A stretch of DNA of 64,000 nucleotides from a bacterium (lineage in GTDB: Bacteria > Oederibacteriota > CAKKQC01). The stretch spans positions 155,896 through 219,895 of the forward strand of contig CAKKQC010000006.1 of the NCBI GenBank assembly GCA_919901855.1, given 5' to 3'. Positions 29,978 through 47,560 of this stretch are shown here, piece by piece. Positions within the stretch are counted from its first letter, which is position 1; each line of letters begins with the position of its first letter. The position numbers were made by a program, and so were the translations under genes. A model generated the notes under the pieces. The model did not search any database and was not told where the DNA came from. It was given only the letters and a program-made list of their open reading frames with translations.

Positions 29978-30976
29978 GTGCCAAGGACTGAGCGGTTGGA
30001 CGTGCCCGGGGTGCTGTATCACGTGATCGTTCGCGGGATTGAAAGAGGGCGGATATTCCGCAACGAACGCGATCACGAGGACTTCGTCGCGAGACTCGGG
30101 AAGCTGGTGGAAGCGTCGGGGACCACATGCTTCGCGTGGGTGCTCCTGCCCAACCACGCGCATCTGCTGGTGCGACGGGGCGAGAAGGCACTCTCGTGGG
30201 TCATGCAACGCCTCCTGACCGGATACGCGGTCTCGCATAACCTGAGGCATGGGAGAAGCGGGCACCTCTTCCAGAACAGGTACAAGGCGATCATCTGCGA
30301 GGAGGATGCGTACTTCCTCGAACTCGTGAGGTACATTCACCTGAACCCATACCGGGCGGGGATGGTTGCCGATCCGGCGAAGCTGGGGCGATATCGATGG
30401 TCGGGGGAGGGTGTCCTGGAAGGACTGCGTCGTTGCGGGTGGCAGGAGACGGAAGAGATTCTGGCGTTGTTCTGCAGGAACAGGCGGCAGGCTCGGGATG
30501 GATACCGGCGGTTCCTGCTGGAGGGGAGCGGGGAGGGACATCGACCGGAGTTGTCGGGAGGAGGGCTGGTCCGGAGTGCCGGCGGAACGGAGCAGTATCT
30601 GGCGAACCGCAGGGCGGGAGAGACGATGCGGGGAGACGTTCGGGTGTTGGGGAGCAGCGAGTTCGTATCGGGAATCATGAAGAAGGCCGAAGCCCTGGAA
30701 CGGCGCACGCACAGGTTGTCACGGCTGATGACGCCCAGGCAGGTGATCGAGAAGGCCGCGAAGGTGGCGGGCGTGAGCCCGGCATCCATGCGTGGGCGGA
30801 ATCAGCATGTGGGTCGCGTGCTGGCGAAGGACTTGGCGTGCAAGTGGCTGGTCGAGGATCTTGGGTTGCGGGGAGCGGCAGTCGCGAAATTGCTGGACAT
30901 CTCGAAGTCCGCGGTCAGCCGCGGGGTCGTGCGGGGGCAGAGGATCGAGAAGGAACGCGGGGTAGCCTTGGAATGA
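29978..30976 (+). CDS. REP-associated tyrosine transposase (RAYT, Y1/IS200-like)
   Basis: This 332-residue HUH single-strand transposase has the metal-binding HxH in LPNHAHLLV (about residue 59), an upstream strand YHVIVRG, and the catalytic-Tyr helix VRYIHLNPYRAG near residues 112-123. The C-terminal half carries a DnaA-like helix-turn-helix (ASMRGRNQH...VAKLLDISKSAVSRGV), as in one RAYT subgroup. It starts at GTG 29978 behind GGGGGAGAA. Members are usually single-copy, domesticated-like genes that mobilise or maintain REP palindromes. The reading frame is intact. Confidence 0.92.
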   Translation: MPRTERLDVPGVLYHVIVRGIERGRIFRNERDHEDFVARLGKLVEASGTTCFAWVLLPNHAHLLVRRGEKALSWVMQRLLTGYAVSHNLRHGRSGHLFQNRYKAIICEEDAYFLELVRYIHLNPYRAGMVADPAKLGRYRWSGEGVLEGLRRCGWQETEEILALFCRNRRQARDGYRRFLLEGSGEGHRPELSGGGLVRSAGGTEQYLANRRAGETMRGDVRVLGSSEFVSGIMKKAEALERRTHRLSRLMTPRQVIEKAAKVAGVSPASMRGRNQHVGRVLAKDLACKWLVEDLGLRGAAVAKLLDISKSAVSRGVVRGQRIEKERGVALE

Positions 30977-31056: not shown

Positions 31057-32947
<1,891 letters not shown>

Positions 32948-32961
32948 ACGGAGGACGGAAC

Positions 32962-33330
32962 ATGGCGAAGATCGTGGCGGTTGACGACGAATCCATGACG
33001 CTGGACCTGATCACGGCCTGCCTCGACCGGCACGAGGTGACGACGGCGTCCGGGGTGGACGAGGGGCTGGCGGCGGTCAAGGCCGCGCGGCCGGACCTCG
33101 TGATCGTGGACTACCACATGCCCGGCAAGGACGGCACGGAGCTCGTGCGCGATATCCGCGCGGACGCGATCCTCAAGGGCACCAGGATCATGATGCTCAC
33201 CGGCGACAGCCGGATGCAGAAGGTCGAGGAGTCGTTCGGGCTGGGCGCGGATGACTATCTCGTCAAGCCATTCTCCTCCGCCGTGCTCCGGGCGCGCGTC
33301 GACGCCCTGCTCGCGAAGCCCAGGGCCTGA
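32962..33330 (+). CDS. Single-domain response regulator
   Basis: The 122-residue protein is one receiver domain, with the acidic pair VDDE (residues 8-9), phosphoacceptor D50 in VIVDYHMPG, the Thr in MMLTGDS and the Lys in YLVKPFSS. There is no output domain, so it acts either like CheY or as a phosphorelay intermediate. It follows enolase by 14 bp with a GGAGGAC ribosome site. The convergent hybrid kinase ends at the next base. Cognate kinase unknown. Confidence 0.93.
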   Translation: MAKIVAVDDESMTLDLITACLDRHEVTTASGVDEGLAAVKAARPDLVIVDYHMPGKDGTELVRDIRADAILKGTRIMMLTGDSRMQKVEESFGLGADDYLVKPFSSAVLRARVDALLAKPRA

Positions 33331-34935
33331 TCAGACCGAGACCGAGGGCGCCGCGGCGGGCGGCGCGTCGAGCACCTCCCGCACCTTGGCCGCGAGCCCG
33401 GTCGGGCTGAACGGCTTCTCGAGGAACGCGATCCCGGACACGAGGAGGCCGTGCTGGATGATCGCGTCCTCGGTGTATCCGGACATGTAGAGGATGCGCA
33501 GGCCGGGGCGGAGGATCTCGAGCCGCTCCCCGAGGATCCGGCCGTTCATCCGGGGCATGACGACGTCGGTCAGCAGGAGGTCGATCGGGTCCGCGTGCGC
33601 GCCCGCGAGCTCGAGGGCGTGCTCGCCGTCGCGGCCCGTGATGACCCGGTAGCCGAGTCCGGCCAGCACCTCCCGCGCGAGGTCGCGAACGCCCTGTTCG
33701 TCCTCCACCAGGAGGATCGTCTCGGTGCCCCCGCGCGCCGGGAGGGGAGGGAGGGCCGCGGCCACCGGCTCTCCGGCCTCCGTGACCAGGGGCAGGTAGA
33801 CCTTGAAAGTGGTTCCGTGGCCGGGCTCGGAGTACGCCCAGATGTTCCCGCCGCTCTGCTTCACGATCCCGTACACGGTGGATAGGCCGAGCCCCGTGCC
33901 CTTGCCCTTCTCCTTGGTAGTGAAGAACGGCTCGAACATGTGCGAGAGCGTCCCCGCGTCCATGCCGGTGCCCGTATCGCTCACCGTCAGCCGCACGTAG
34001 GGGCCGATGCTGACCCCGACGTGGCGGCGGGCGTAGTCCTCGTCGAGGTACACGTTCGCCGTCTCGATCGTGAGCGTGCCGCCGCCCGGCATCGCGTCGC
34101 GGGCGTTGACGACGAGGTTCAGGAGCACCTGGTGGAGGCGGCCGGGGTCGACCTTGAGCCGGCCGAGGCCGGCGGCGAGATGCAGGCGGATCTCGACGTC
34201 CTCGCCGAGCGTTCGCCTGAGTAGTTCCTCGATTTCGCCAAGCTCGGCGTTGAGGTCGAGAACCTTCGGCTGGAGCATCTGGCGGCGGCTGAACGCGAGC
34301 AACTGCTGGGTCAGGCCGGTCGCCCGTTGGCCCGCCTTGTGGATTTCGGCGATGGTTTTGCGCGCGGGGTCCTCGGGCGGGAGGCGGTGGAGCAGGAGCT
34401 CGCTGTAACCGATCACGGTGGTCATGATGTTGTTGAAGTCGTGCGCGATGCCGCCGGCCAGCCGGCCGACGGCCTCGAGCTTCTGGACCAGGATGAGCTG
34501 TTCCTCGCTCCGGGCTAGCGCCTCGATCGACTTGGCCCGCTCGCAGGCGTAGCGCAGGGTGCGGGCGAGCATCGCGGGACTCACGTGCGCGCGGGGCAGG
34601 CATTCCTGCGCCCCCAGTTCGAATGCGCGGACGCCGCCGGGAACGTCCTCGTGCTCGGTGAGGAGGACGACCGGGACGTTCGGAGCGGCCGTGACCAGGG
34701 AGCGGAGGTGGTCCGCGCCCGATCCGTCGAACCGGGGGAGGTTGAGCAGGACGACATCCCAGCGCTTCGCGTCCGGCGCTTCTGCGGTCCTGATGTGGGA
34801 GAGCGCGTCGGCCTGCCCGGCCGCCCAGACGACCTCGAAGGGCGAGCCGGCGGGGGAGGTCAGCATGTCGCCGATGATCCGGGCGTCCTGCTCTATCCCG
34901 TCCACGAGGAGTACGCGCATCTTGGTGTTCAGCAT
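33331..34935 (-). CDS. Hybrid histidine kinase (pseudo-REC, HisKA, HATPase, REC)
   Basis: The 534-residue cytoplasmic protein has a receiver-like N-terminal domain whose phosphoacceptor position is Asn (N65 in VVLLNLPRFDG), so it is a pseudo-receiver. Next come HisKA with H165 in GGIAHDFNN, HATPase with NLVVNARDAMPGG and TGLGLSTVYGI, and a C-terminal receiver with intact Asp in LLTDVVMPRMNG. The start ATG at 34935 is chosen because a sigma-54 promoter places transcription near 34945; an ATG at 34950 would lie upstream of that point. It is probably controlled by, and signals to, the neighbouring sigma-54 activator. Confidence 0.92.
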   Translation of the reverse strand: MLNTKMRVLLVDGIEQDARIIGDMLTSPAGSPFEVVWAAGQADALSHIRTAEAPDAKRWDVVLLNLPRFDGSGADHLRSLVTAAPNVPVVLLTEHEDVPGGVRAFELGAQECLPRAHVSPAMLARTLRYACERAKSIEALARSEEQLILVQKLEAVGRLAGGIAHDFNNIMTTVIGYSELLLHRLPPEDPARKTIAEIHKAGQRATGLTQQLLAFSRRQMLQPKVLDLNAELGEIEELLRRTLGEDVEIRLHLAAGLGRLKVDPGRLHQVLLNLVVNARDAMPGGGTLTIETANVYLDEDYARRHVGVSIGPYVRLTVSDTGTGMDAGTLSHMFEPFFTTKEKGKGTGLGLSTVYGIVKQSGGNIWAYSEPGHGTTFKVYLPLVTEAGEPVAAALPPLPARGGTETILLVEDEQGVRDLAREVLAGLGYRVITGRDGEHALELAGAHADPIDLLLTDVVMPRMNGRILGERLEILRPGLRILYMSGYTEDAIIQHGLLVSGIAFLEKPFSPTGLAAKVREVLDAPPAAAPSVSV

Positions 34936-34955
34936 GGGCTCACGGTGCATTGCAT

Positions 34956-34971
34956 AGCAACTGCCGTGCCA
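34956..34971 (-). promoter_or_regulatory. Consensus sigma-54 promoter of the hybrid kinase gene
   Basis: On the minus strand the sequence reads TGGCACG-GCAG-TTGCT, with GG and GC 12 bases apart, a full match to the sigma-54 -24/-12 consensus. Transcription would start near 34945. A palindrome GGGAGAATCTCCC lies about 96 bp upstream. The same promoter pattern recurs at 38535. Confidence 0.85.
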
Positions 34972-35034
34972 CCGACCGGTGCGGGCGGGACAGGGTTCCT
35001 GAGGGCACAAGGGGGGGAAGGAGGCTTGGGGGCC

Positions 35035-35047
35035 GGGAGAATCTCCC
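35035..35047. promoter_or_regulatory. Candidate enhancer site GGGAGAATCTCCC for the sigma-54 activator
   Basis: This perfect 13-bp palindrome is followed 6 bp later by a degenerate copy, GGGATTATCTCCT (35054-35066), spaced 19 bp centre to centre. It lies about 96 bp upstream of the sigma-54 transcription start of the hybrid kinase. It differs at one base from GGGAGAAACTCCC at 38449-38461, placed similarly before the second sigma-54 promoter. Confidence 0.65.
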
Positions 35048-35098
35048 TGCCGCGGGATTATCTCCTCGTGGTGCCGTGGCAGGCTAGAATGACTCCAT

Positions 35099-37051
35099 GT
35101 CGCGTCCTGAAGGACTGCATCGCGAACAGGGGGTGAGAGTCCCCTCCGGGCAAGCGCCGGAGCACCCGGAAGCAGGCTCCGGCGTCGGGCAGAGATGCCT
35201 TGCGCTGAGCGGAGCGTCGAAAGCCATCGAGAGGTGGGAGCGAATCCACAGCCCGCAACATGAAGTGAAGTCTGCAGCCTCGACATATTCTCAGCCGAAA
35301 GGTGTACGGGAGGGCCGAGCCGCTCATGTCACGGCGAAGGCAATAGACAAGCGTCCGGGTACCGGAGGGACGCTGGACCTCCCCGGGGTACGGGAAGCAG
35401 GATGTGGAGAAGGCGCGATGCGGGACAGGAGAGACCCTCCCCGGCAGCCTCTGTCGGGCAAACACCGTTTGTATAAGGAGAAACCGAAAGCGAGCGGAGC
35501 CGGGAGGGAGTCCGAGGGGCTCGTAGTACCGAGGATGGTCGCGGAGAACAACGCGGCCGGAGGGAAGGGGCCCTGCTTTGGTCGTGCGTGCGACGGGGGT
35601 AAGCGCGTGGGAATGGCTCGGGAAACCGGACCTAACGACCCCGGCGGACAGAAGTCCGCTGAACCCGTGCGAGAACTCCAACGTACGCTTCGGGCGTGTG
35701 CCAAGCGGAGCAAGACACGGCGTTTCCACGCGCTGTATGACCGGATGTGCGGGAGTGACGTCCTGCACGAGGCGTGGAGGCGAGTGAGCAGGAATCGGGG
35801 AGCGGCGGGAGTGGACGGTGAGAGCATCAAGGCCGTGGAGGAACGCGGAGTTGAAGCGTTCCTTGAAGGCATCCGCGCCGACCTCGGGACGGGCCGGTAC
35901 CGACCCCATCCGGTGCGGAGGCGGTACATACCGAAGGGAGACGGGAAGCAGAGGCCGCTGGGGATACCGACGGTGCGCGACCGGGTAGTGCAGGCGGCGG
36001 CGAAGGTGGTCCTGGAACCGATCTTCGAGGCGGACTTCCGGCCCTGCTCGTACGGGTTCCGGCCCGGGCGGAACACGACGCAGGCGCTGGAAGCGATCCG
36101 AGAAGCCGGGAACCGGGGACTGAACTTCGTGCTCGACGCCGACATCCGGAAGTTCTTCGACTCGATCGACCAGCAGAAGTTGCTGGTGCTGGTAGGGAAG
36201 AGGGTGAGCGACCGGCGGGTGGTGAAACTGATCCGACAGTGGCTTTCAGCCGGGGTGATGGAGGAGGGCACGGTGAGGAACAGCCTGACGGGGACGCCCC
36301 AGGGCGGAGTGATCTCGCCGTTGCTGGCCAACATATACCTGCACTTTCTCGACCGTGCGTGGGAGAAGAGGTACTCACACCTTGGAATCCTCGTGCGGTA
36401 CGCGGACGACTTCGTGGTGATGAGTGACACGAGGGAGAAGGCCGAGAGAGCGCGAGACCGCGTGACGGAGATCATGGCGCGGCTGGGGCTGGAACTGCAT
36501 CCGGAGAAGACGAGACTGCTCGATCTCACAAGGGGCAAGGAGAGCTTCACGTTTCTGGGATGCGAGATCCGCAAGCGGCGGAGCATTCAGCGGGCACCGG
36601 ACAAGTACTTCATGAAGCGGTGGCCGTCGAGGGAAGCGATGAAGCGCATCCGGAGCCGCATATACGCGCTGACGGACGCGAGTCAAAGCGGGGTGAGACA
36701 CGTCGGCGAGCTGATCGAGCGGATCAACCCGGTACTCCAAGGCTGGGGCCAGTACTTCCGGACCGGAAACGCGGAGCATATGTTCAACGTGACCGACGCG
36801 TACGTGTACCGGCGCATCATGCGCTGGTTCTCCCGGCGCGGCGGCTGGCGTACCGCCTTCCGGGCCGAGGTCTGGCCCTCAGCGCGTCTCCACGGCATTG
36901 GTCTCGTCCGTCTGATGGGGTCCGTGCGGTATCCCGCGCAAGCCACGCTTGTAAGACCATCGTTAAGCCGTGTGCGGGAAATCCGCAAGCACGGTTTGAA
37001 AGGGGGTGCTGGATTGGTGTCCGCCTGTGGGATACTGAGCCAGTAATCTAC
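35099..37051 (+). mobile_element. Group II intron with maturase/reverse transcriptase
   Basis: About 510 bases of structured non-coding sequence precede the RT gene, corresponding to ribozyme domains I-IV. The 5' boundary GTCGCG is close to the GUGYG consensus, and GGGGGTGAGAGTCCCCT at 35129 is a typical domain I hairpin. Domain V is recognisable at 36966-36997: AGCCGTG pairs with CACGGTT, with a two-base bulge and a GAAA-containing loop. Domain VI and the end, near CTAC at 37051, follow. Boundaries are good to a few bases. The 3' end lies two bases before the ATG of the sigma-54 activator gene. Confidence 0.85.
35613..37046 (+). CDS. ltrA: Group II intron reverse transcriptase/maturase
   Basis: The 477-residue RT copies and helps splice its host intron. 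Visible RT blocks are RKFFDSID (block 3), GTPQGGVISPLLANIYL (block 4), RYADDFVVM (block 5, YADD at residues 263-266), GLELHPEKTRL and FTFLGCEIRKR. A group II maturase domain follows (NPVLQGWGQYFRTGNA). No HNH endonuclease domain is present. The ATG at 35613 was chosen because upstream in-frame sequence is ribozyme RNA. The C-terminal 30 codons read through domain V into domain VI, an overlap found in some intron lineages. No disruption is visible. Confidence 0.93.
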   Translation: MARETGPNDPGGQKSAEPVRELQRTLRACAKRSKTRRFHALYDRMCGSDVLHEAWRRVSRNRGAAGVDGESIKAVEERGVEAFLEGIRADLGTGRYRPHPVRRRYIPKGDGKQRPLGIPTVRDRVVQAAAKVVLEPIFEADFRPCSYGFRPGRNTTQALEAIREAGNRGLNFVLDADIRKFFDSIDQQKLLVLVGKRVSDRRVVKLIRQWLSAGVMEEGTVRNSLTGTPQGGVISPLLANIYLHFLDRAWEKRYSHLGILVRYADDFVVMSDTREKAERARDRVTEIMARLGLELHPEKTRLLDLTRGKESFTFLGCEIRKRRSIQRAPDKYFMKRWPSREAMKRIRSRIYALTDASQSGVRHVGELIERINPVLQGWGQYFRTGNAEHMFNVTDAYVYRRIMRWFSRRGGWRTAFRAEVWPSARLHGIGLVRLMGSVRYPAQATLVRPSLSRVREIRKHGLKGGAGLVSACGILSQ

Positions 37052-37053
37052 CA

Positions 37054-38421
37054 ATGGCGCTCAACCGGGAGATCCTGCTCGTCGTCGAGGACGAGGAAGA
37101 GGTGGCCGGCCTGCTCCGGGACGCGCTGGAGGCCCCGAACCGGGAGATCCTGTTGGCCCGGACCGGTGCGGAGGCGCGGAGCCTGCTGGCGCGGGACCCC
37201 GCGGTTGTTCTCCTCGATATCGGCCTGCCGGACGTTTCCGGCCTAGATCTCCTGCCCGAGGTGCTCGGTGACCGGCGCGGCCGGGTGGCGCTCATGCTCA
37301 CGGGGCAGGCCGAACAGGACAGCGTCATCATCGCGATGCGGCACGGCGCCATGGATTACCTCACCAAGCCGTTCTCGATCGACGAGGTGACGGCCAAGGT
37401 CGACAAGGCCTTCGAGCTGGCCGCCCGGAACCGCGCCGTCCGGGAATTGCCGGCCGCCGGCGAAGCGCCGGTTTCCGGCGCCGGGGTCGAGCAGTTCCTG
37501 GTCGGGCGGTCCCCGGCGATGCTCGAGCTGTACAAGCTGATCGGCCGGCTGGCCGGCTCCGCGATCCCGGTCCTGATCCGGGGCGAGAGTGGGTCCGGCA
37601 AGGAACTGGTGGCCCGCGCGCTCCACCGGTTCGGTCCCCGCCCGGACGGCCCCTTCGTGGCCGTGGACTGCGGCAGCCTGCCGGCGGGCCTCCTGGAGGG
37701 AGAGCTCTTCGGATACGAGCGGGGGGCGTTCACGGGAGCGGTGGCGGCGAAGCCGGGCCGGTTCGAGCTCGCCGACGGCGGCACCCTGTTCCTGGACGAA
37801 GTTGGGAACATCCCCATGGAGCTTCAGGCGAAGCTGCTCCGCGCGCTCCAGGAGAAGGCGACCCAGCGGCTGGGCGCCACGAAGGCCGTGTCCTGGGATG
37901 CCCGGGTCCTCTCCGCCACCAACGCCGATCCCCGGGAACTGGCCTCCGAGGGCCGGTTCCGCGAGGATCTTCTGTACCGGCTTGCAGGGGTCGAGATCGG
38001 CGTGCCGCCCCTGCGGGAACGGCTGGGCGATCTCCCGGTCCTGGTGGGGCTTTTCCTTCGCCGCTGGGCCGCCGGCCGGCCGGGGTTGGCGTTTACGCCC
38101 GAGGCCATCCGGCTGCTCGAGGCCTGGTCCTGGCCGGGGAACGTCCGCGAGCTGGAGCACGCGGTCAGCCGGGCCGCCGCGCTGGCGTCCGGGCCGTCGA
38201 TCGGCCCGGAGTCTCTCCCGGGCGAGGTCCGGTCGGGTCGGTCTCCCGACCCCCCGGGCATGTCCGGCCGTCCGGCGGGCAAGGCGGACCTCCTGACCCT
38301 CGAGGAGATGAAACGGCGTTACGCCCGCGAGGCGCTTGGGCTCTGCGGGGGGAACCGGGCCGAGACGGCCCGCCTCCTCGGGGTCGATCCCAAGACGTTG
38401 AGAGCGCTCCTCCAGGACTGA
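37054..38421 (+). CDS. Sigma-54-dependent response regulator (NtrC family)
   Basis: The 455-residue activator has a receiver domain with D55 in [10 protein letters not shown], an AAA+ domain with Walker A GESGSGKE (177-184), the sigma-54 contact loop GAFTGA (224-229), Walker [12 protein letters not shown] and the Arg-finger segment FREDLLYRL, and a C-terminal Fis-type helix-turn-helix ([20 protein letters not shown]). No ribosome site precedes the ATG, because a group II intron ends two bases upstream. It is flanked by two sigma-54 promoters with matching palindromes, its probable targets. Confidence 0.95.
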
Positions 38422-38443
38422 TCTCCCCGCAAGACCGGCGGGA

Positions 38444-38486
38444 GGGAGGGGAGAAACTCCCCACCTACCGGACTGATTCCCCTCCC
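38444..38486. promoter_or_regulatory. Candidate enhancer region upstream of the second sigma-54 promoter
   Basis: The core palindrome GGGAGAAACTCCC occupies 38449-38461, extending by one G/C pair on each side. It is a one-base variant of 35035-35047. A larger dyad, GGGAGGGGA (38444-38452) with TCCCCTCCC (38478-38486), overlaps it. The core centre is about 106 bp before the predicted transcription start. The hairpin could alternatively terminate the activator mRNA, but it lacks a T-run. Confidence 0.6.
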
Positions 38487-38534
38487 GTGATCCCGCGACA
38501 CCAGAAAAGCCGCTGCCTGCGCGCCGTTTGCGCT

Positions 38535-38550
38535 TGGCACGCCGCTTGCT
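38535..38550 (+). promoter_or_regulatory. Consensus sigma-54 promoter of the secreted-protein operon
   Basis: TGGCACG-CCGC-TTGCT fully matches the -24/-12 consensus, with GG and GC 12 bases apart. The predicted start of transcription is near 38561. A strong AGGAGGAAC ribosome site follows at about 38576, before the ATG at 38590. It lies 113 bp after the stop of the sigma-54 activator gene. Confidence 0.87.
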
Positions 38551-38589
38551 CTATCAGGGAGCAGCATGACACCGCAGGAGGAACACTCG

Positions 38590-40128
38590 ATGATTCCCAG
38601 GGAAATGAGCCGGTTGGGATGCGTCGTCGCGTTGGTGGTGGCCGGTAGGGCCGCGGTGGCGGCCGACTGGAACGGACTCGAGAACCAGGGCGCTCCCGTG
38701 GCGTATCTCGCCCAGCCTTCCGTGGCGTTGCTCTCGTCCTCGCGGTCGGTCGTCGTCGGCACCCGCCTCGACGGCGGCGTCGTCCGGCTCGGCGGGATGC
38801 TCGTGGACCGGGGGGTCTGGACGGCGCTTGGCGGGGCGTCCGTGGACGAGGGGACCGCCGTGGCGCACCGGGCCCCCCGCCTTGCTGCGGACGGCGCCGG
38901 TCATGCGGCCCTGCTCTACGGCCGGTTCGACGGCAGTGTCTGGCGCCTCGCGGCACGCTGGTTTGACGGCGCCGTCTTCTCCGACCTCTCCGGCGGCGCT
39001 CCGGTCGACCAGGATGTCGGAGGGAACACCGGCGGCTTCGCGGGCGCGTTCGTGACGATAACCAAACTCGTTGTCGCGTACACGAAGGACGACGGGAGCC
39101 GGATGGCGCTCTTCGTCCGGTCGTGGAACGGCGGCGGCTGGCAGGACGAGAACGCGGGAGCGGCTCTGGACGATCCGGCCGGCATCGGCGCCGATGCGCC
39201 CGCGATTGCGGGGGACGGGGCCGGCGGGGCGCTGGTCGCGTACGTCCAGTACGGATCCGGCGGTCAGCGGCTCACGACCGTGCGGCTCGACGCGACCGGC
39301 TGGCAGCCGACCGGCGCCGCGACGCCTCCGGATCACCTGGGGTTGGGCGGGGTATCCTCGCCCGCCGTGACGGCGCTGGCGGGCGGCCGCTGGCTCGTCG
39401 CGTACGTCCAGGAGGACGCGGACGGCGCGAGCCAGCACCTGTACGCCGCGGTCTGGACGGGCTCGTCCTGGGCGTACGTCAACGAGGGCCTGCCCCTGGA
39501 CGGCTACCCGAAGGGCGTCCGGGCTCCCGCGGTGGCGTCCGACGGCGCGGGGGGCGCGATTCTCGTCTACACCACGGCGGATCTCGTGGACGGCATCGAG
39601 GCGCCCACGGTCAGGTCCCTGCGCGTGACCGGGCTGTCGGCCACTCCGATGAACGGCGGGGATTTCCTCGAGGCGGCCGGCGCCGGAACGATTCCGGCGC
39701 TCGCCCTCGCGACGTGGGGGGTGGGAGGAGCGTGCAGCGCCCTCCTGCTCATGGACGAGCAGTCGGGTGGCATCGACCGGGTCTATTCCCGGGCGATCCT
39801 GGCGCCCGTGGCGGCGACGCCCGTCGCAACCGCTCCGGCGGAGACGGGCCCGGGGGTGCGCGTAACGCACAATCTGTTCAGGCCCGACCGGGGCGAGCAG
39901 GCGCGGATCGTCTATGTGTCTCCCACCTCGGAGCGCTTGCGGGTGGCAATCTATTCGCTCGCGGGTACCGCGGTCCGGCTGGTGTCCGACGGCCCCTTGG
40001 CGGGCCGGGGCGAGTGGATGTGGGACGGCCGGGATGACGCGGGGCAGACGGTGGGCGCGGGAGTCTATCTCCTGGTGGCGGAGGCGGGGTCCGCTCGCGA
40101 CACCCGCAAGATCGTGGTGGTCCGGTGA
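38590..40128 (+). CDS. Secreted repeat protein with FlgD-like C-terminal domain
   Basis: The 512-residue product has a signal peptide (cleavage near AAVAADW). Residues 30-410 contain repeated beta-strand units with AxxxDGAGGALVAYVQ-like and GGRWLVAYVQE-like motifs, suggesting a beta-propeller. The last 85 residues (from VRVTHNLFRPDRGEQ) form a FlgD-Ig-like domain ending GVYLLVAEAGS...RKIVVVR, similar to C-terminal anchoring or sorting domains in lineages with many surface proteins. The ATG at 38590 has a clear AGGAGGAAC site; the ATG at 38566 does not. It is probably under sigma-54 control. Confidence 0.85.
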   Translation: MIPREMSRLGCVVALVVAGRAAVAADWNGLENQGAPVAYLAQPSVALLSSSRSVVVGTRLDGGVVRLGGMLVDRGVWTALGGASVDEGTAVAHRAPRLAADGAGHAALLYGRFDGSVWRLAARWFDGAVFSDLSGGAPVDQDVGGNTGGFAGAFVTITKLVVAYTKDDGSRMALFVRSWNGGGWQDENAGAALDDPAGIGADAPAIAGDGAGGALVAYVQYGSGGQRLTTVRLDATGWQPTGAATPPDHLGLGGVSSPAVTALAGGRWLVAYVQEDADGASQHLYAAVWTGSSWAYVNEGLPLDGYPKGVRAPAVASDGAGGAILVYTTADLVDGIEAPTVRSLRVTGLSATPMNGGDFLEAAGAGTIPALALATWGVGGACSALLLMDEQSGGIDRVYSRAILAPVAATPVATAPAETGPGVRVTHNLFRPDRGEQARIVYVSPTSERLRVAIYSLAGTAVRLVSDGPLAGRGEWMWDGRDDAGQTVGAGVYLLVAEAGSARDTRKIVVVR

Positions 40129-41030
40129 TTCCCCGGACGGTGGGTGGCCGCGGTTTCGCGCTCGCGCTGGCCGTGGCGTTGGCGGCTGGGGCGCCGGCGG
40201 CGGGCCGCGGTGCCTCGACGCAGGCCCTGCTCGGGTCCGCGCGGTCGGCCGGGCTGGGGGCGGATGCGGCCGCCGGCGGCGGGATCGCGGGGCTCCAGGG
40301 CAACCCGGCCGCGCTCGCATCCCAGACCGGCTGGGCCGCGGCCGGGACCTACCTCTCGTGGCTCGAGGGGGCCAGGATCGGCCAGCTCACGGCGTGTGCC
40401 CCCACGCCGGCGGGGCCGGTAGCCCTCTCCATCGGCAGCTTCACGGCGGGGAGTGTGGACGTGGTCGAGGACAGCGGCGCGGTCCGGACCGTGAATGCCC
40501 AGCAGGATACGGTGGTGACCGCCACGCTGGCGCGGTCGATCGTGCCCGGGTTCGAGGCGGGCGTGGCCGGAACGTGGTACCGCTCCGTACTCGCGGAGAC
40601 GTGGGTGGCGAGCGCCGCGTCCGTGGGGCTCGGCGCGCGGTTCGTGACCGCCGACGGGGCCCTTTCGCTCGGAGGGGTGGTCGCGAACGCCGTGGGCACG
40701 CCGCTCCGGTACGCCGGACAGCCCCAGGCCCTCCCCAGAACGGTGACGGCGGGGGCGGCGTGGCGGCCGGTGCGGAGCCGGCTGGTGGGCCTGCTGCTCG
40801 CCGTCGATTACGTCGCGGCGCCGGGAGACGCGGATGCGCAACGGTTGGGCGTCGAGGCCGAGTTCGTGCGCCTCCTGGCCCTGCGGGCCGGCGTCACCCG
40901 GGGCGGCGGGGTCGCTTCGGTCTCGGCCGGCCTCGGGGCGCGGTGGGGACGGGTCCAGTTCGACTACGCGGTCGCCTCTCCCTCCCGGCTGGGGACGGCG
41001 TCGCGCGCGACCGTGACGGTGGCGCTGTGA
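40125..41030 (+). CDS. PorV/UPF0164-like outer-membrane barrel protein
   Basis: The 301-residue product has a signal peptide (through about residue 30, AGRGAS). The N-terminal motif GSARSAGLGADAAAGGG...LQGNPAALA matches the start of PorV/PorQ/UPF0164-type barrels (GARxxGLGGA...NPAGL). The rest is alternating amphipathic strands ending ATVTVAL, consistent with an outer-membrane barrel. PorV proteins escort type IX secretion substrates. Pairing with a FlgD-tailed secreted protein in the preceding gene (GTGA overlap) is suggestive, but no type IX core genes lie in the window. Confidence 0.78.
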   Translation: MIPRTVGGRGFALALAVALAAGAPAAGRGASTQALLGSARSAGLGADAAAGGGIAGLQGNPAALASQTGWAAAGTYLSWLEGARIGQLTACAPTPAGPVALSIGSFTAGSVDVVEDSGAVRTVNAQQDTVVTATLARSIVPGFEAGVAGTWYRSVLAETWVASAASVGLGARFVTADGALSLGGVVANAVGTPLRYAGQPQALPRTVTAGAAWRPVRSRLVGLLLAVDYVAAPGDADAQRLGVEAEFVRLLALRAGVTRGGGVASVSAGLGARWGRVQFDYAVASPSRLGTASRATVTVAL

Positions 41031-42196
41031 CCGCCACTTTCATCCGCCCGCCGCGGGTTCTCGTCGTGGACGACGACGAGGGCATCCGGGGGCTGATCGA
41101 CGCCACGCTCTCGACCATGGGGTGCCAGGTCACCTGCGAGGCGGACGGGCGCCTCGGGCTGGCGCGGCTCGACGAGGGAACCTGGGACGCGGTCCTATTG
41201 GACCTCAACCTGCCCGGGATGAACGGCTTCAAGGTTCTGGAAGCCATCCGCGACCGCTATCCCGTGGAGAAGCTCCCGGTGATCATGATCACGGGCCAGG
41301 ACGACTCCGAGACCCGGTTCGAGGCGCTCCGGCTCCGGGCCAACGACTTCCTGAGCAAGCCCCTGCACCCGGCCGAGCTCCTCGCGCGGATGAACACCGT
41401 CCTCTCGATGCGGATCGCCCAGCAGGAGCTGGAGGAGCGCGTAGCCGAGCTCGGCCGGATGAACGAGCTCAAGGACCTGCTCGTCAACTACTGCATCCAC
41501 GACATGCGGGGTCCGCTGTCGAGCGCGCGGGGGTTCGTCGAGCTGGCCATGGAGCGCGCGGCTGACCCCGCGGCGCCCGAACACCGCCACCTGGCGAGGG
41601 CGCTGGGGGCCATCGACATGGTCGTCCGGATGGCGTCGGACGTCATCGAGGTGACGAAGATGGAGGAGGGGCGGCTCACGCCGGCGCTCGAGGACGTGGA
41701 CGCGGGCGGGATCGTGCGGGCGCGGGTCGAGCTCTTCGAGGGGCTCGCCTCGTCCCGGCGGGTGACGTTGGGGGTGGTCGTCGAGGAGGGCCTTACGCCC
41801 GTGCGGGCGGATGTCCACCTGCTGGAGCGGATCCTCGACAACCTGACTACCAACGCGCTCAAGCATACCCCTCCCGGGGGACGGGTGACCCTGCGTGCCG
41901 CACGGGCGCCGGAGGGGGCATCGGTCGTCCTCGCGGTCGAGGACACGGGCGAGGGCATCCCGCAGGCGTGGCTGGGCCGGATCTTCGACAAGTTCACGCA
42001 GGTCGAGGCGCGCCGGCTCGGGTTCGCGCACGACACGGGGCTGGGGCTCACGTTCTGCCGGATGGCCGCGGAAGCCCAGGGGGCCCGGCTCTGGGTCGAG
42101 AGCGAGGAGGGCCGGGGGTCCCGGTTCAGCCTTGAAGTGCCGCTGGCCGCGGTTCGGCCGGAGGCGCTCGACCGGCGGATGGCCGTCGCCGCCTGA
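41027..42196 (+). CDS. Response regulator-histidine kinase (REC-HisKA-HATPase)
   Basis: The 389-residue soluble protein has an N-terminal receiver (DDDEG, phospho-Asp in VLLDLNLPGMNG, Lys in FLSKPLH), a coiled linker, HisKA with the His of CIHDMRGPLSSARGF, and a complete HATPase (LDNLTTNALKHTPPGG, VEDTGEGIP, DTGLGLTFCR). It is the third gene of the sigma-54 operon, overlapping the barrel gene (GTGA). A degenerate paralog lies at 46434-47558. It ends six bases from a convergent kinase gene. Confidence 0.92.
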   Translation: MTATFIRPPRVLVVDDDEGIRGLIDATLSTMGCQVTCEADGRLGLARLDEGTWDAVLLDLNLPGMNGFKVLEAIRDRYPVEKLPVIMITGQDDSETRFEALRLRANDFLSKPLHPAELLARMNTVLSMRIAQQELEERVAELGRMNELKDLLVNYCIHDMRGPLSSARGFVELAMERAADPAAPEHRHLARALGAIDMVVRMASDVIEVTKMEEGRLTPALEDVDAGGIVRARVELFEGLASSRRVTLGVVVEEGLTPVRADVHLLERILDNLTTNALKHTPPGGRVTLRAARAPEGASVVLAVEDTGEGIPQAWLGRIFDKFTQVEARRLGFAHDTGLGLTFCRMAAEAQGARLWVESEEGRGSRFSLEVPLAAVRPEALDRRMAVAA

Positions 42197-42202
42197 CCGG
42201 GG

Positions 42203-44020
42203 TCAGCCCGCGGCGTTCAGGATCTGGCGCGTCTTCTCGAGCAGGGCGCGCGGGGTGAAGGGCTTCTGGAGGAAGTTCCCGCCGACGTCAACGCCCAGGT
42301 CCGCGAGCGCGTCCTCGGCGTACCCCGACATGAACAGCTTCCGGATGTCCGGCCGCCGGTCCGCAACCGTATCGAGGATCTTCCGGGCGCCGCCGTTGGG
42401 CATCCTGACGTCCGTGATGAGGAGATGGATCGGGCCCTCCCGTTCCCGCTCTATCCGGGCGGCCTCTCCCGGCTCTCCGGCCGACAGCACCGTGTATCCC
42501 GTCTCGGTCAGGACGCTCGCCATGAGGTCGCGCAGCCGCGGCTCGTCCTCGACCAGCAGGATGGTGGCCGTGGCCCGGAGGACGGCGCCGGCCGCGGATT
42601 CTCCCGGTGCCGCGGAGACCGGGAGGTCGACGCGGGGGAGATGGAGCCGGAAGACGGACCCGGCGCCCGGGGCGCTCTCGACCTCGATGTCCCCCTTGTT
42701 CTGCTTGATGGCTCCGTAGACGGTGGCGAGGCCGAGCCCCGTGCCCTTGCCCTGTTCCTTCGTGGTGAAGAACGGCTCGAACAGCCGCGAAATCGTGCGC
42801 TGGTCCATCCCGGTGCCGGAGTCGCGGACGGACAGCGTCACGTACCGCCCGGGCGCCAGCCCGGCCGGCAGCCGGGGGTCGTCTCCCGCGAACGAGGTAT
42901 TCGCCGTCGTGATCTCGATCCGGCCGCCGTTCGGCATGGCGTCCCGGGCGTTTACCAGCAGGTTCACGAGGATCTGCTCGAGCTGGCCGGGGTCGAGCAG
43001 GCAGTTCCCGAGATCGGGAGCGAGGCCGGGCACGACCGCGATGTGCTCGCCCAGGAGCCTGGAGAAGACATCGAGGCGCTCGGTTACGAACGCGTTGACG
43101 TTGACGGCCCGGGGGCGGATCACCTCCTTGCGGCTGAAGGAGAGGAGCTGGCGGACGAGCCGCGTGGCCTCTTCGGTCGAGCTCCGGAGGCCCGCGAGCC
43201 AATGCCGGGCCGGCGCGTCCCCTGAAAGGCGGCCTGCCAGCAGTTCCCCGTAGCCCGTGATTACCGTGAGCTTGTTGTTGAAGTCGTGCGCCACGCCTCC
43301 CGCGAGCAATCCGATGGCTTCGAGCTTCTGGGACTCGAACAGGCGCTCCTGCTGCCGCGTGATGACGCCGGCCTGCGCGGTCACTTCGTCCTTGAGCTTC
43401 GCGTTCAGCCGGGCCAGCCCGTCCCGGGCGGAGAGCATGCGCTCGTAGAAGAGGTCGAGGAGTCCCGCGCCGAACACGGTGAGCGCCCACATGCCCAGGA
43501 CGTTGACAATGACGCTGGACGCGGCGCCCGTTCCGTGGGGGGGCAGGAAGTGCTCGCGCATGACCACCGACCAGGCGATGATCATCGCGCAGGCGGAGGT
43601 CGAATAGATGAGATACCACCGGAGCGGCAGCAGAATCACGGCGACGAAAAGCAGGGAGTACGTCTGCGCGAGCTGCATGTTGAGCCGCGTGAACCAGTCG
43701 GTATTGGAGGCCTGGAAGAGCCCGGTCAGCACGGCGAATGCGGCGAAGACGTAGATCACGTGCGCCTCGCGCCGGCGGCCCCGCCGGGCGAGCAGGTAGA
43801 GACCCGGGTGGACGAGGGCCCAGCAAACCACGCCGATCCGCAGGAACGGGACCCGCTCGGGTTCGTAGAACGGATTCTGGCCGCCGAATCCGACCGTCAG
43901 GACGGCGGTCGCGCTGACGAAGAGGAGGACGTTGAATACGGCATCGCGGACCCGCTCGATGTCGACGGCGGCGCCGAGGAGCGCCGCGCGCCGCGCGGCG
44001 AGCCAGGCCCGCAGGTTCAC
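42203..44020 (-). CDS. Membrane-bound hybrid histidine kinase
   Basis: The 605-residue protein has six probable membrane helices in its first 190 residues, of no sensor family I recognise. A coiled linker follows, then HisKA (GGVAHDFNNKLTV), HATPase (NLLVNARDAMPNGG, TGLGLATVYGA) and a C-terminal receiver (LLITDVRMPNGG). It starts with GTG at 44020, overlapping the stop of the membrane-protein gene upstream. It is thus the third member of a coupled operon with a flavoprotein and a small membrane protein, which may supply or detect its signal. Confidence 0.9.
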   Translation of the reverse strand: MNLRAWLAARRAALLGAAVDIERVRDAVFNVLLFVSATAVLTVGFGGQNPFYEPERVPFLRIGVVCWALVHPGLYLLARRGRRREAHVIYVFAAFAVLTGLFQASNTDWFTRLNMQLAQTYSLLFVAVILLPLRWYLIYSTSACAMIIAWSVVMREHFLPPHGTGAASSVIVNVLGMWALTVFGAGLLDLFYERMLSARDGLARLNAKLKDEVTAQAGVITRQQERLFESQKLEAIGLLAGGVAHDFNNKLTVITGYGELLAGRLSGDAPARHWLAGLRSSTEEATRLVRQLLSFSRKEVIRPRAVNVNAFVTERLDVFSRLLGEHIAVVPGLAPDLGNCLLDPGQLEQILVNLLVNARDAMPNGGRIEITTANTSFAGDDPRLPAGLAPGRYVTLSVRDSGTGMDQRTISRLFEPFFTTKEQGKGTGLGLATVYGAIKQNKGDIEVESAPGAGSVFRLHLPRVDLPVSAAPGESAAGAVLRATATILLVEDEPRLRDLMASVLTETGYTVLSAGEPGEAARIEREREGPIHLLITDVRMPNGGARKILDTVADRRPDIRKLFMSGYAEDALADLGVDVGGNFLQKPFTPRALLEKTRQILNAAG

Positions 44021-44688
44021 AACCTGCCCTCGAGCTTGAGGGCCCACACGCGCATCGTCGTCCCGTACCAGAACATGATGATCATGTACCCGATGTGGAT
44101 TTCCCAGCCCAGCCCCAGCGGGGACTTGCCGATGCCGAACCCGAGGTTGTAGGTCCAGCATCCCAGCATGATGCCGTACGACCACTCCGCCAGCGAGCCC
44201 ATGATCTGGATCGCGATCGCGTCGCACAGGAGCACGCGCCAATCGATGAGCAGGTTCCGGTGGGGCAGGCGGAAGAACACCTTGCCCATCCAGTTCGAGA
44301 TCAGCATCGCGAGCGTAAACGTCGTCCCCCAACCGATCAGGGCGAGCAGGGGGATGTCCTTCCAGACGACGACGTTGAACTTGTCGGGCAGGTAGGTCCA
44401 GTAGGGCTCGGTCAGGAACTCCCACTGGATGCCGAAGATCCAGCCCATCAGGAACTCCTCCATGAGGTCGCGCTTGAAGAACGCCTTCGCGATCGACCAG
44501 ACCAGAACGGCGGTGAAGACCGATCCGTACTCGTACTTCGTCGGCCACCCGTTCCCCTGGAGATGGATCTGGCCGGTCGCGGCCAGCAGCGCTATGGAGC
44601 CGATCACGATCACGGCCCACAGCCGCAGCCATGGACGGTCCACGAAGTACTTGACCACGGCCTCAACCCACGTCTTCCGCTTGCGCAT
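44017..44688 (-). CDS. Polytopic membrane protein of unknown function
   Basis: I do not recognise the family. The 223-residue protein has about six membrane helices (near residues 21-40, 55-70, 76-92, 110-132, 150-170 and 195-215), with many aromatic residues, including a conserved-looking WEFLTEPYWTYLPDKFN segment and GWEIHIGYMIIMFWYG. Its start overlaps the stop of the FAD protein gene (ATGA), and its stop overlaps the hybrid kinase start (GTGA). It may be a lipid- or isoprenoid-modifying enzyme, or a sensory partner of the kinase, but nothing in the sequence decides. Confidence 0.75.
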   Translation of the reverse strand: MRKRKTWVEAVVKYFVDRPWLRLWAVIVIGSIALLAATGQIHLQGNGWPTKYEYGSVFTAVLVWSIAKAFFKRDLMEEFLMGWIFGIQWEFLTEPYWTYLPDKFNVVVWKDIPLLALIGWGTTFTLAMLISNWMGKVFFRLPHRNLLIDWRVLLCDAIAIQIMGSLAEWSYGIMLGCWTYNLGFGIGKSPLGLGWEIHIGYMIIMFWYGTTMRVWALKLEGRL

Positions 44689-46367
44689 CAGCGTGCTCCC
44701 TTCTTGCCTGCCGCCATCCGGGTCTTCACCGCCCGTCCCGTGGCGTAGAATCTGCCGACGTTCGCCGCGAAAGCGGGCAGGGCGCCCACGGCCCGTCCGC
44801 CCGCCACGGCGTACTTGGTCTTCCTTCTTCCGAGAAACAGCATGGCCTCATGATACAGGAGGGTGACATAGGCCGAGACGAACGTCCACACGACGAGATC
44901 GAGGCGGCCCCGATTGTTGCGCAGGACGGAGGCGACGACGCCGGGCCGGCCGGCGCAGATTCCGACGAGCCGGTTGAGAGTCTTCAGGCGGATCTTGTCC
45001 TGGAACGCCTCGTTCTTGAGTTCCGGGTCGAGTCCCTCGGCCGCCTCCGCGAACGCGATCCAGTCGCGGTTGACCGTCCCCGGCGCCTCGCCGGGCGCGA
45101 GCTCCATGGCCCCGCCGAAGAGGCCCTCGACGGCCTGCGAGGCGCGCTCGCGCGGGTCGATGTCGATCCGGCAGAGGTGGCGGAACGAGAGCCGGTTCCT
45201 CCGGAGGGCGAGATCGATCGAGGCGGCGAGCGCCGCGGCGTTCCGGGCCAGCGGCCCGAACGCGCATCCCGTGAGGCCGCTGTACTGGAGGGCGGAGGCC
45301 CCGGCGAGCAGGACCCGGTCACCGACGGATGTCCGCCGCCGGAACCGGGCGAGCGGCCCGGGGGCGTGGAAGGCGGGCCCGTGGCCGAAGTACGTCTTCA
45401 CCGCCATTTCCTCCCGGAAGCCGTCCAGTACCTGCGGGATTCGGGCCAGCATGTCGTCGAGGAGTGGCGCCAGCGGCGAAGGGCGGGCCGTCCGGGTGAA
45501 GTAGTAGACAAGGTCGCCCCCGTCGTGGCGATCGGGGACGTAGTCCGTGAACCGTTCGAGTATGGGCTGGACGGGCCCCGCCGCGGACGGAATCTCGTTC
45601 TCGTACGTCGCGCAGATGAGTCCGAGGGGGCGGCCGGTGGCCGGGTTCGCGATCCTGGGGAGCCGCGTCGCGGTGCGAATCCCGAGCATGTTGTAGACCG
45701 ACTCCGGGTCCATATCCCGGGTCATGATCCCCGCCAGCGGTGAGGCCCACCCGGTCGTGTCGAGGTAGAGCCGGGCCGCGACGATCCGCTCTCCGGTGCC
45801 GTCCGCGCACGCGACGCGGGCCTCGGACCGGTTGATCGCCGCCAGCCGGGCCGTGCATCCGGACCGTATGCTGAGGCCCGGCCGCTTCGTCAGCGCGGCG
45901 AAGAACCGGTCCTCGTCGAGGGAGAGGTTCAGAATCTCGTCGAAGTGGTACTCCCGCTGGCGGGGTGGGGCCGCGGCGGAGTCGTACAGCCGGAAGACGC
46001 CCTCGTCGAACTCGCCGGTGACGAGGGCTTCCCATGCTCCTTCGGGCAGGACGCCGGTGGCCCGGAGCGCGGCGAGCTCGTCGCGGGAAACGTTCCAGGT
46101 GGCCCCGCAGCGGAACGTCAGGTTCCGCTCCAGCAGGAGGATCGAGTGTCCCCGGCCGGCCAGCAGGTTGCCGAGCAGGACGCCCCAGGGACCTCCGCCG
46201 GCGATCACGACGTCGAACCGCTCGCCGACGGGGGGGCCGGGCTCGGTCGGGACGATGACCCGGGCCCGGCCGCGGAGTCCGGTCCGGACCACGCGCTCCG
46301 GCAGTTCGTTGGGGGGGACCGACTGCCAGAACCGGTCGTATGCGGCCACCGCCTCACGGTCGATCAT
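44688..46367 (-). CDS. FAD-dependent oxidoreductase, halogenase/lycopene-cyclase-like fold
   Basis: The 559-residue protein has a Rossmann FAD motif VVIAGGGPWGVLLGNLLAGRG with the terminal acid in LLLER (about residues 51-80). A second flavin motif follows, DRVLLAGASALQYSGLTGCAFGPL (quoted in part, near residue 355), where GD is typical in the PHBH superfamily. A C-terminal helical extension (about 400-559) is present. The pattern fits the geranylgeranyl-reductase/lycopene-cyclase/halogenase group, but the halogenase WxWxIP motif is absent, so the substrate is unknown. First gene of a coupled operon with a membrane protein and hybrid kinase. ATG at 46367. Confidence 0.8.
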   Translation of the reverse strand: MIDREAVAAYDRFWQSVPPNELPERVVRTGLRGRARVIVPTEPGPPVGERFDVVIAGGGPWGVLLGNLLAGRGHSILLLERNLTFRCGATWNVSRDELAALRATGVLPEGAWEALVTGEFDEGVFRLYDSAAAPPRQREYHFDEILNLSLDEDRFFAALTKRPGLSIRSGCTARLAAINRSEARVACADGTGERIVAARLYLDTTGWASPLAGIMTRDMDPESVYNMLGIRTATRLPRIANPATGRPLGLICATYENEIPSAAGPVQPILERFTDYVPDRHDGGDLVYYFTRTARPSPLAPLLDDMLARIPQVLDGFREEMAVKTYFGHGPAFHAPGPLARFRRRTSVGDRVLLAGASALQYSGLTGCAFGPLARNAAALAASIDLALRRNRLSFRHLCRIDIDPRERASQAVEGLFGGAMELAPGEAPGTVNRDWIAFAEAAEGLDPELKNEAFQDKIRLKTLNRLVGICAGRPGVVASVLRNNRGRLDLVVWTFVSAYVTLLYHEAMLFLGRRKTKYAVAGGRAVGALPAFAANVGRFYATGRAVKTRMAAGKKGAR

Positions 46368-46433
46368 CTGGTTGGGATGTTAGCAGTCTTCCGGGATCAG
46401 TGTGCGATTGGACAATGCGTCACGGCATACGGA

Positions 46434-47558
46434 TCAGACGGGATTCGCCCCCGGCGCGAACTGGGCAACGCCGCCGGTCCGCGCGTAGCTCTCGATCCCC
46501 TTGTGGAGGCGCAGGGAGAAACATAGAGCCGAGGTCTTGCCCGGCGTCCCCTCGGCCCGGAGCCGTCCGCCCATGCTTTCCACCGCGCGCCGGCAGAATC
46601 CCAGCCCGGTGCCGTCCACGGGCTGGAGCGAGCCCTGCCAGCCCTCGGCCAGCCGGACCTCGACCCGGACCTCCCCGGCGGCGTCATCCTGGGTCAGGCC
46701 GACGTCAACGCGGCCGCGGACGGCCGACTGGGCCACCGCCGCGGCCAGCAGGTGGTCCATGACCCGCGTGAGCCTGGAGACGTCGGCGGCCACGGCCCCT
46801 ACGTGGGAGCCCAGGACCAGCCCGACCGCGACCTCCCGGCGAAGCGCCCGGCGTTGGGCCGCCTCGACCCGGGCGAGGCAGAGTTCCTGGAGATCCACGG
46901 CAGCGACCCGCAGCGGCTCGTGCCGCTCCTCGGTTCGCGCGAACGCCGCCGCCCGCGCGAGGATGACGCCCGCGTCCTCGAGAGCCTCGAGCCCCTCCTG
47001 AATGCGGTGCTTGGCGGCGTCCTCGACGCCGGGACCTTCGAGCGCCCCGCGCAGAACCCGCCGGGCCTCCGTCAGCGGGGCTCCGAGGTCCGCCTCGAGG
47101 GAGCCCGCGAGCCAGGTCCGGAAGGCCGTCGCCGGCTTGAGCTCCGCGATCTCGTCCTCGAGAATGGCCTGCGCGCGCCGGAAGGCGAGGAGGCCGCCGA
47201 TGCGGACGAGCAGTTCCGAGCGATCCACTGGCTTGGACAGGAACTCGTTCGCCCGCAGCTCGAGGCCCCGCTGGCGCGCCTCGGCGTCGTCCATGCCGGT
47301 GACCAGGATGACGGGCAAATGCTCCATCGGCCACTTCGCGCGGAGCCGCTCGAGGACCTCGAATCCGTCGATCCCGGGCATGTTGAGATCGAGCAGGACG
47401 ACATCCCATCCGCCGTCCTCGAGCCGGTCGAGCCCCTCCTGGCCGCCTGCCGCCTCGGTGACGGCGCATCCCATGGGTTCGAGGAGCGCGCGCAGGAGCC
47501 GGCGCGACCGTTCATCGTCGTCGACGACGAGGAGCCGCGGCTGTCCGACGAGCGGCAT
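46434..47558 (-). CDS. Receiver fused to degenerate (pseudo) histidine kinase
   Basis: The 374-residue protein has an intact N-terminal receiver (VVDDDE, Asp in VLLDLNMPGIDG, Lys in FLSKPVD) and a kinase-like C-terminal half similar in layout to the protein at 41027-42196. The phospho-acceptor His is missing: the position corresponding to HDMRGPL reads ADLGAPL. The N-box reads DHLLAAAV instead of DNLTTNAL, and the DTGEGIP box is not found; only GTGLGFCRRA remains. It is probably a phosphorylation-controlled scaffold. It follows the REC-TM kinase by two bases. Confidence 0.87.
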   Translation of the reverse strand: MPLVGQPRLLVVDDDERSRRLLRALLEPMGCAVTEAAGGQEGLDRLEDGGWDVVLLDLNMPGIDGFEVLERLRAKWPMEHLPVILVTGMDDAEARQRGLELRANEFLSKPVDRSELLVRIGGLLAFRRAQAILEDEIAELKPATAFRTWLAGSLEADLGAPLTEARRVLRGALEGPGVEDAAKHRIQEGLEALEDAGVILARAAAFARTEERHEPLRVAAVDLQELCLARVEAAQRRALRREVAVGLVLGSHVGAVAADVSRLTRVMDHLLAAAVAQSAVRGRVDVGLTQDDAAGEVRVEVRLAEGWQGSLQPVDGTGLGFCRRAVESMGGRLRAEGTPGKTSALCFSLRLHKGIESYARTGGVAQFAPGANPV

Positions 47559-47560
47559 CG

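Follow-up and report, generated by a model that had tools for sequence, protein, structure and literature searches.

A probable sigma-54 activator circuit and a group II intron in the start codon of its activator gene in a bacterium of the phylum Oederibacteriota

Organization of the locus

The locus described here lies in a bacterium of the phylum Oederibacteriota (CAKKQC01; assembly GCA_919901855.1). The window, that is, the whole stretch of DNA analyzed, comprises 64,000 nucleotides of contig CAKKQC010000006.1. The locus comprises a gene for a sigma-54 activator of the NtrC type, a divergently oriented hybrid histidine kinase gene, and a downstream operon for an exported protein with an FlgD-type tail, a PorV/PorQ-like barrel and a second kinase (Table 1). 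Two sigma-54 promoters, one facing the hybrid kinase and one in front of the operon, are each accompanied by short palindromic dyads. A group II intron separates the first dyads from the activator gene, and divides the activator start codon as AU^G. This intron was overlooked in the initial annotation, whose description of a "self-contained" circuit of kinase, activator and operon ignores an insertion in the activator start codon.

Table 1. Features of the locus, with positions in the window (., no strand assigned)
Feature	Position	Strand	Evidence
Hybrid histidine kinase (receiver-HisKA-HATPase-receiver)	33331-34935	-	Pfam
Sigma-54 -24/-12 promoter facing the kinase, exact TGGCACGGCAGTTGCT	34956-34971	-	Word search
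Dyad 1, upstream activator site on the kinase side, exact GGGAGAATCTCCC	35035-35047	.	Word search
Dyad 2, weaker, GGGATTATCTCCT, 19 bp from dyad 1	35054-35066	.	Sequence reading
-10-like TAGAAT, located 6 nt ahead of the A in the split start codon; putative promoter for leaderless transcription of the activator	35085-35090	+	Sequence reading
AU from the original activator start codon, ending the 5' exon (likely register)	35097-35098	+	Junction comparison
Group II intron of 1957 bp, inserted in the activator start codon as AU^G	35099-37055	+	Rfam RF02003, RF00029; four-member alignment
Candidate exon-binding site 2 (EBS2), ATTCT, which could pair with AGAAT in the -10 box; weak, about 0.7 sites expected by chance	35287-35291	+	Pairing search
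Candidate exon-binding site 1 (EBS1), GTGGAG, pairing with CTCCAT; weak, about 0.9 sites expected by chance	35404-35409	+	Pairing search
Intron-encoded reverse transcriptase/maturase (RVT_1 + GIIM); span of the open reading frame, true start uncertain	35682-37046	+	Pfam, NCBIfam
Intron domains V and VI and 3' splice site	36963-37055	+	RF00029
NtrC-type response regulator/sigma-54 activator; AUG formed by the last 2 bases of the intron and the first exon base	37054-38421	+	Pfam, translation, NCBIfam
Dyad 1, operon activator site, exact GGGAGAAACTCCC	38449-38461	.	Word search
Dyad 2, weaker, CGGACTGATTCCC, 20 bp from dyad 1	38469-38481	.	Sequence reading
Sigma-54 -24/-12 promoter of the operon, exact TGGCACGCCGCTTGCT	38535-38550	+	Word search, genome counts, pattern scan
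Exported FlgD_ig-tailed protein; start probably at 38590, downstream of AGGAGG, rather than at 38566	38566-40128	+	Pfam, translation, comparison
PorV/PorQ-like barrel protein	40125-41030	+	NF033709 match, comparison
Receiver-HisKA-HATPase kinase, kept with the operon in the related genome G001	41027-42196	+	Pfam, comparison

The activator and its putative binding sites

The activator has the domains Response_reg (PF00072), Sigma54_activat (PF00158) and HTH_8 (PF02954, a Fis-type helix-turn-helix), and its translation contains ERGAFTGA with the GAFTGA loop, in agreement with the initial annotation of this reading frame. It falls into no named NtrC-type subfamily (NtrC, AtoC, PrsR), as it stays below the cut-off in all 25 NCBIfam models listed; its best scores are 362.7 bits for NtrC, 359.6 for AtoC and 354 for the PEP-CTERM regulator. 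The barrel protein of the operon reaches 73.8 bits against the NF033709 cut-off of 90, and its assignment to the PorV/PorQ family is accordingly a likeness only.

Both promoter words and both of the near-identical 13-bp palindromes of the initial annotation were recovered as exact matches where it had placed them. A weaker dyad 19-20 bp from each main dyad fits the expectation for a pair of dimer sites, and the consensus is about GGGA-N5-TCCC in tandem copies 19-21 bp apart. The proposed genome-wide scan for the palindrome returned two exact matches of GGGAGAAWCTCCC in 4,681,141 bases, both at the locus; the promoter word TGGCACGNNNNTTGCW has three exact matches in the whole genome, two of them at the locus. 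The lack of rpoN had been named as a finding that would speak against the circuit, and the genome encodes one such gene (PF04552, E 1.4e-56).

Allowing up to two mismatches yields no more promoter and dyad words in the window than in shuffled sequences, so that the case for these elements depends on the exact matches. This lack of excess is what would be seen if the dyads and promoter words were chance matches. The genome counts already disfavour that explanation, the exact words being almost confined to the locus in 4.68 Mb, and the same architecture is retained in a second genus; we regard chance as very improbable.

Conservation in a related genus

The closest relative of the activator among 59 genomes is found in G001, which belongs to a different genus of the same family (64% identity; runner-up 51%). 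An activator query against the contigs of the source genome returned only paralogs at 30-50%. The G001 locus (L088/L333) is ordered as activator stop, GGGAGAAATTCCT, GGGAATAATTCCC 21 bp further on, promoter TTGGCACGGCCGTTGCA, a short open reading frame (ORF) and the operon, in which the FlgD-tailed protein, the PorV-like barrel and the kinase are 41%, 51% and 57% identical to their counterparts in the window. By eye, the additional short ORF that follows the sigma-54 promoter and precedes the FlgD-tailed gene (L333:6050-6500) is FlgD-like.

A scan of 45 genomes of the phylum for the pattern dyad-N50-80-promoter matched the window locus, the G001 locus and one isolated site in G041, and the reversed (backwards) control gave one match; the scan used a fixed central A, overlooks the kinase-side site in the opposite reading, and is informative for the operon side only. 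Because G001 keeps the activator, the tandem dyads, the sigma-54 promoter and the target operon, it is likely that the activator controls the operon through sigma-54. The original proposal that it drives the downstream operon is thus supported by the G001 architecture and by the rarity of the pattern.

As a separate observation, two activator homologs each contain one in-frame stop (TAG, TGA), at G036:C107:22814-24142 and G034:C105:34376-35701; both genomes belong to one genus.

The divergent kinase

The initial annotation also placed the hybrid kinase in the circuit, as the partner that signals to the activator. In such a closed loop, the kinase would phosphorylate the activator, which in turn would drive both the kinase and the operon. 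The divergent position of the kinase gene, together with its consensus promoter and matching dyads, suits this idea. The comparison with G001 does not support it: the relative of the kinase there (69% identity) sits on another contig (C208), the fetched locus of this relative has no dyad or sigma-54 promoter of the circuit type, and no kinase is adjacent upstream of the activator. Moreover, kinase matches number dozens per genome, and the kinase conserved alongside the activator is, by this comparison, the operon's own. We therefore consider the closed loop unlikely. Co-occurrence of these genes in related genomes, which had been proposed as a check, holds for the activator, dyads, promoter and operon, which stand together in G001, and not for the hybrid kinase, which is unlinked there. 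In the same way, the palindromes recur before the G001 operon and are absent from the fetched locus of the kinase relative.

The group II intron in the activator start codon

The intron was recognized by Rfam through RF02003 (86.7 bits at 35127-35263, domain I) and RF00029 (40.7 bits, domains V/VI). Its ORF matches PF00078 and PF08388 in Pfam, and TIGR04416 with 425.5 bits against a cut-off of 300; no endonuclease domain was detected in this reverse transcriptase with Pfam or NCBIfam.

The intron starts after the second base of an ATG at 35097, and its end comes after the second base of another ATG, at 37054. Since ATG is present at both junctions, the register is ambiguous by up to 3 bases, and the placement in Table 1 was chosen because only the AU^G register gives a 5' G together with a 3' AY. 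The end consensus of group II introns is 5' GUGYG ... AY 3' (PMC7923331). In the AU^G register the ends are G...AU, but the later 5' positions deviate from the consensus (GUCGC, GGUGC). A further copy in the source genome, on contig C7, has GTG at its 5' junction, which agrees with the first base being the host's. Pairing of EBS1 and EBS2 with the exon was dropped as proof of the register, as it is near the chance level estimated from base composition.

Folding of the intron 3' end gave no clear translational signal. It could be argued that the insertion silenced or crippled the activator and that only a relic of the circuit is left in this strain, as the activator AUG has no Shine-Dalgarno-like element before it and 1.96 kb of structured insert separate the sole apparent promoter region from the activator gene. 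On the other hand, the activator, the dyads, both promoters and the operon are intact and free of stop codons, and the start codon is preserved in other copies of the intron as well. The argument from intactness is weakened if the insertion is too recent for decay. On balance, we find a relic rather improbable.

Related introns and their insertion sites

Relatives of the maturase (53-61% identity) occur on an Embleya plasmid, on a viral contig of IMG/VR and, within another phylum, in two genomes; a third genome has a 3' fragment. In a four-member alignment of the intron, conservation extends to the final base on either side, up to AT^G. In the source genome, other 5' ends are preceded by TATGAT-N6-[AG]TG (contigs C50 and C7), and at other 3' ends CTACCAATG runs into ORFs (contigs C88 and C43).

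At the 3' junctions, an ORF opens at the ATG in 8/8 cases. The host genes include those for YjbQ, a tryptophanase-like lyase, a TGS GTPase and an AbiEi-like protein, a phosphatase-like ORF and two ORFs of the source genome itself. For several of the recognized families (YjbQ, lyase, TGS GTPase, AbiEi-like), the models start at or beside the junction ATG; the TIGR00149 match of the YjbQ host begins at residue 7. At the 5' junctions, TANNNT is found upstream of the start codon in seven of the eight copies, at 6, 6, 6, 6, 7, 8 and 9 nt. As background, the motif precedes 0.5-1.5% of the RTG triplets of these sequences (0.5% in the window), and 4/41 gene-like ORFs even if any start within the first 40 codons is counted.

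In the maturase tree, five full members and one further intron form a supported group of six (95/99). Searches of plasmids and phages for further members of the subfamily added only the Embleya copy and a fragment in Streptomyces scopuliridis, and ATGGTGCGTCCTGA matched only unrelated sequences in viral contigs.

Group IIC-like introns insert after hairpins or terminators. The window copy does not share this habit: by eye, no hairpin lies upstream of it or of most of its kin, the S. scopuliridis fragment (L284) being the exception. The RF02003 relatives L127, L129 and L138 resemble group IIC-like introns in lying after or inside inverted repeats. L138 (about 870-2900, in G020) interrupts an inverted repeat midway, GGTTGTCCACGATG ... 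CATCGTGGACAACC.

Proposed mechanism and alternatives

Taken as a whole, the locus is probably best explained as a sigma-54 circuit, an intron insertion at AU^G of its activator, and an intron lineage that recurs at start codons below -10 elements. The activator would bind the tandem dyads and turn on the sigma-54 promoter of the operon for the FlgD-tailed protein, the PorV-like barrel and the kinase. The divergent hybrid kinase has a similar promoter and site here, which is not demonstrably so in G001.

Leaderless mRNAs begin at the start codon, and a spacing of six bases between a -10 element and AUG is that of a leaderless promoter. With TAGAAT six bases before AUG, the activator gene probably had such a promoter. 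The shared dyads cover its proposed -35 region, which makes autoregulation likely. The start codon has been entered by a mobile group II intron; the 3'-terminal AU of this intron and the exon G remake AUG, leaving the coding frame intact whether or not the intron is spliced. To judge from the position of the -10 element, the transcript would start at the intron or at most 2 bases from it. The 5' exon would then be too short for normal splicing, and the intron would act as the 5' leader of the activator mRNA, transcribed from the host-gene promoter from about its own first base.

It is also conceivable that this is an ordinary intron: transcription would start further upstream, the 5' exon would be adequate, and splicing at AU^G would give back the exact AUG. 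Domains V/VI and the maturase are intact, and insertions that leave the host gene expressed should be those retained, so that the pattern at start codons would reflect the survival of harmless insertions and not targeting. A -10 element at a nearly fixed distance in 7/8 copies is not what survival alone would predict, and next to the divergent kinase only about 125 bp remain upstream for any other promoter. We see in the ordinary intron a serious possibility, though not the one that we favor.

From the junctions, we read the intron lineage as one that targets the start codons of leaderless genes, and the activator mRNA would accordingly begin at the intron. In a more specific reading, the lineage homes to active leaderless promoters, its target covering the DNA that RNA polymerase melts, between the -10 element and the start codon. 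The endonuclease-less element would reverse-splice into DNA melted in the open complex, and the host promoter would afterwards transcribe it, beginning with its own first base, as the 5' leader of the host gene. This extension is speculative, and we give it only slender credence.

Several observations weigh against the overall explanation. The circuit is known from just one related genus. Pairing between the exon-binding and intron-binding sites is near chance in the window copy and incomplete in the L144 and Embleya copies. The -10 matches are short, and the 5' and 3' ends on other contigs of the source genome cannot be matched into pairs. The L284 5' fragment (3950-4240) of S. scopuliridis stands directly after a long perfect hairpin and not at a start codon. 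Another intron, L162, is not at a start codon although it falls within the supported group of six, and a clade restricted to start codons was set aside as not fully supported. A single origin of the start-codon habit is compatible with the tree but is not demonstrated by it.

Neighboring genes

Two-component genes are exceptionally dense around the locus: the 16 kb from 32932 to 49045 hold no fewer than five kinases, together with several receivers. An ORF resembling a REP-associated tyrosine transposase, with a score under the NCBIfam cut-off, lies at 29978-30976.

Significance and comparison with known systems

The usual view is that group II introns spare their hosts either through splicing or through insertion outside genes. 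If the proposed explanation is true, the repeated takeover of start codons in leaderless genes would add a third way of sparing the host; intron mobility would be tied to promoter melting, and intron RNA would become part of bacterial gene control. The sigma-54 part would provide a dedicated regulator and a defined operator for an export operon of the FlgD-tail/PorV-like type in a little-studied phylum.

The literature searched, which lacked the papers most relevant to the question, contained no description of start-codon or leaderless targeting by group II introns, and priority is therefore uncertain. The Avi.groEL intron reportedly sits in the groEL stop codon, and stop- and start-codon introns are said to be treated by Michel et al. 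2007 ("Specialized lineages of bacterial group II introns") and Waldern et al. 2020 ("Hiding and Hijacking"). These introns are likewise inserted at gene boundaries so that the coding frame is spared.

With mobile bacterial group II introns (TIGR04416, RF02003), the present intron shares domains I and V/VI, a maturase-type reverse transcriptase and several genomic copies. It differs from them in its target, a start codon downstream of a -10 element, and in its 5' end, which is GUCGC or GGUGC instead of GUGYG in the register used. The activator, for its part, resembles the NtrC, AtoC and PrsR regulators in having a receiver, a GAFTGA-containing AAA+ domain and a Fis-type helix-turn-helix. As in those systems, paired dyads lie about 100 bp upstream of a -24/-12 promoter and autoregulation is probable, whereas the target here is an operon for an FlgD-tailed exported protein and a PorV-like barrel.

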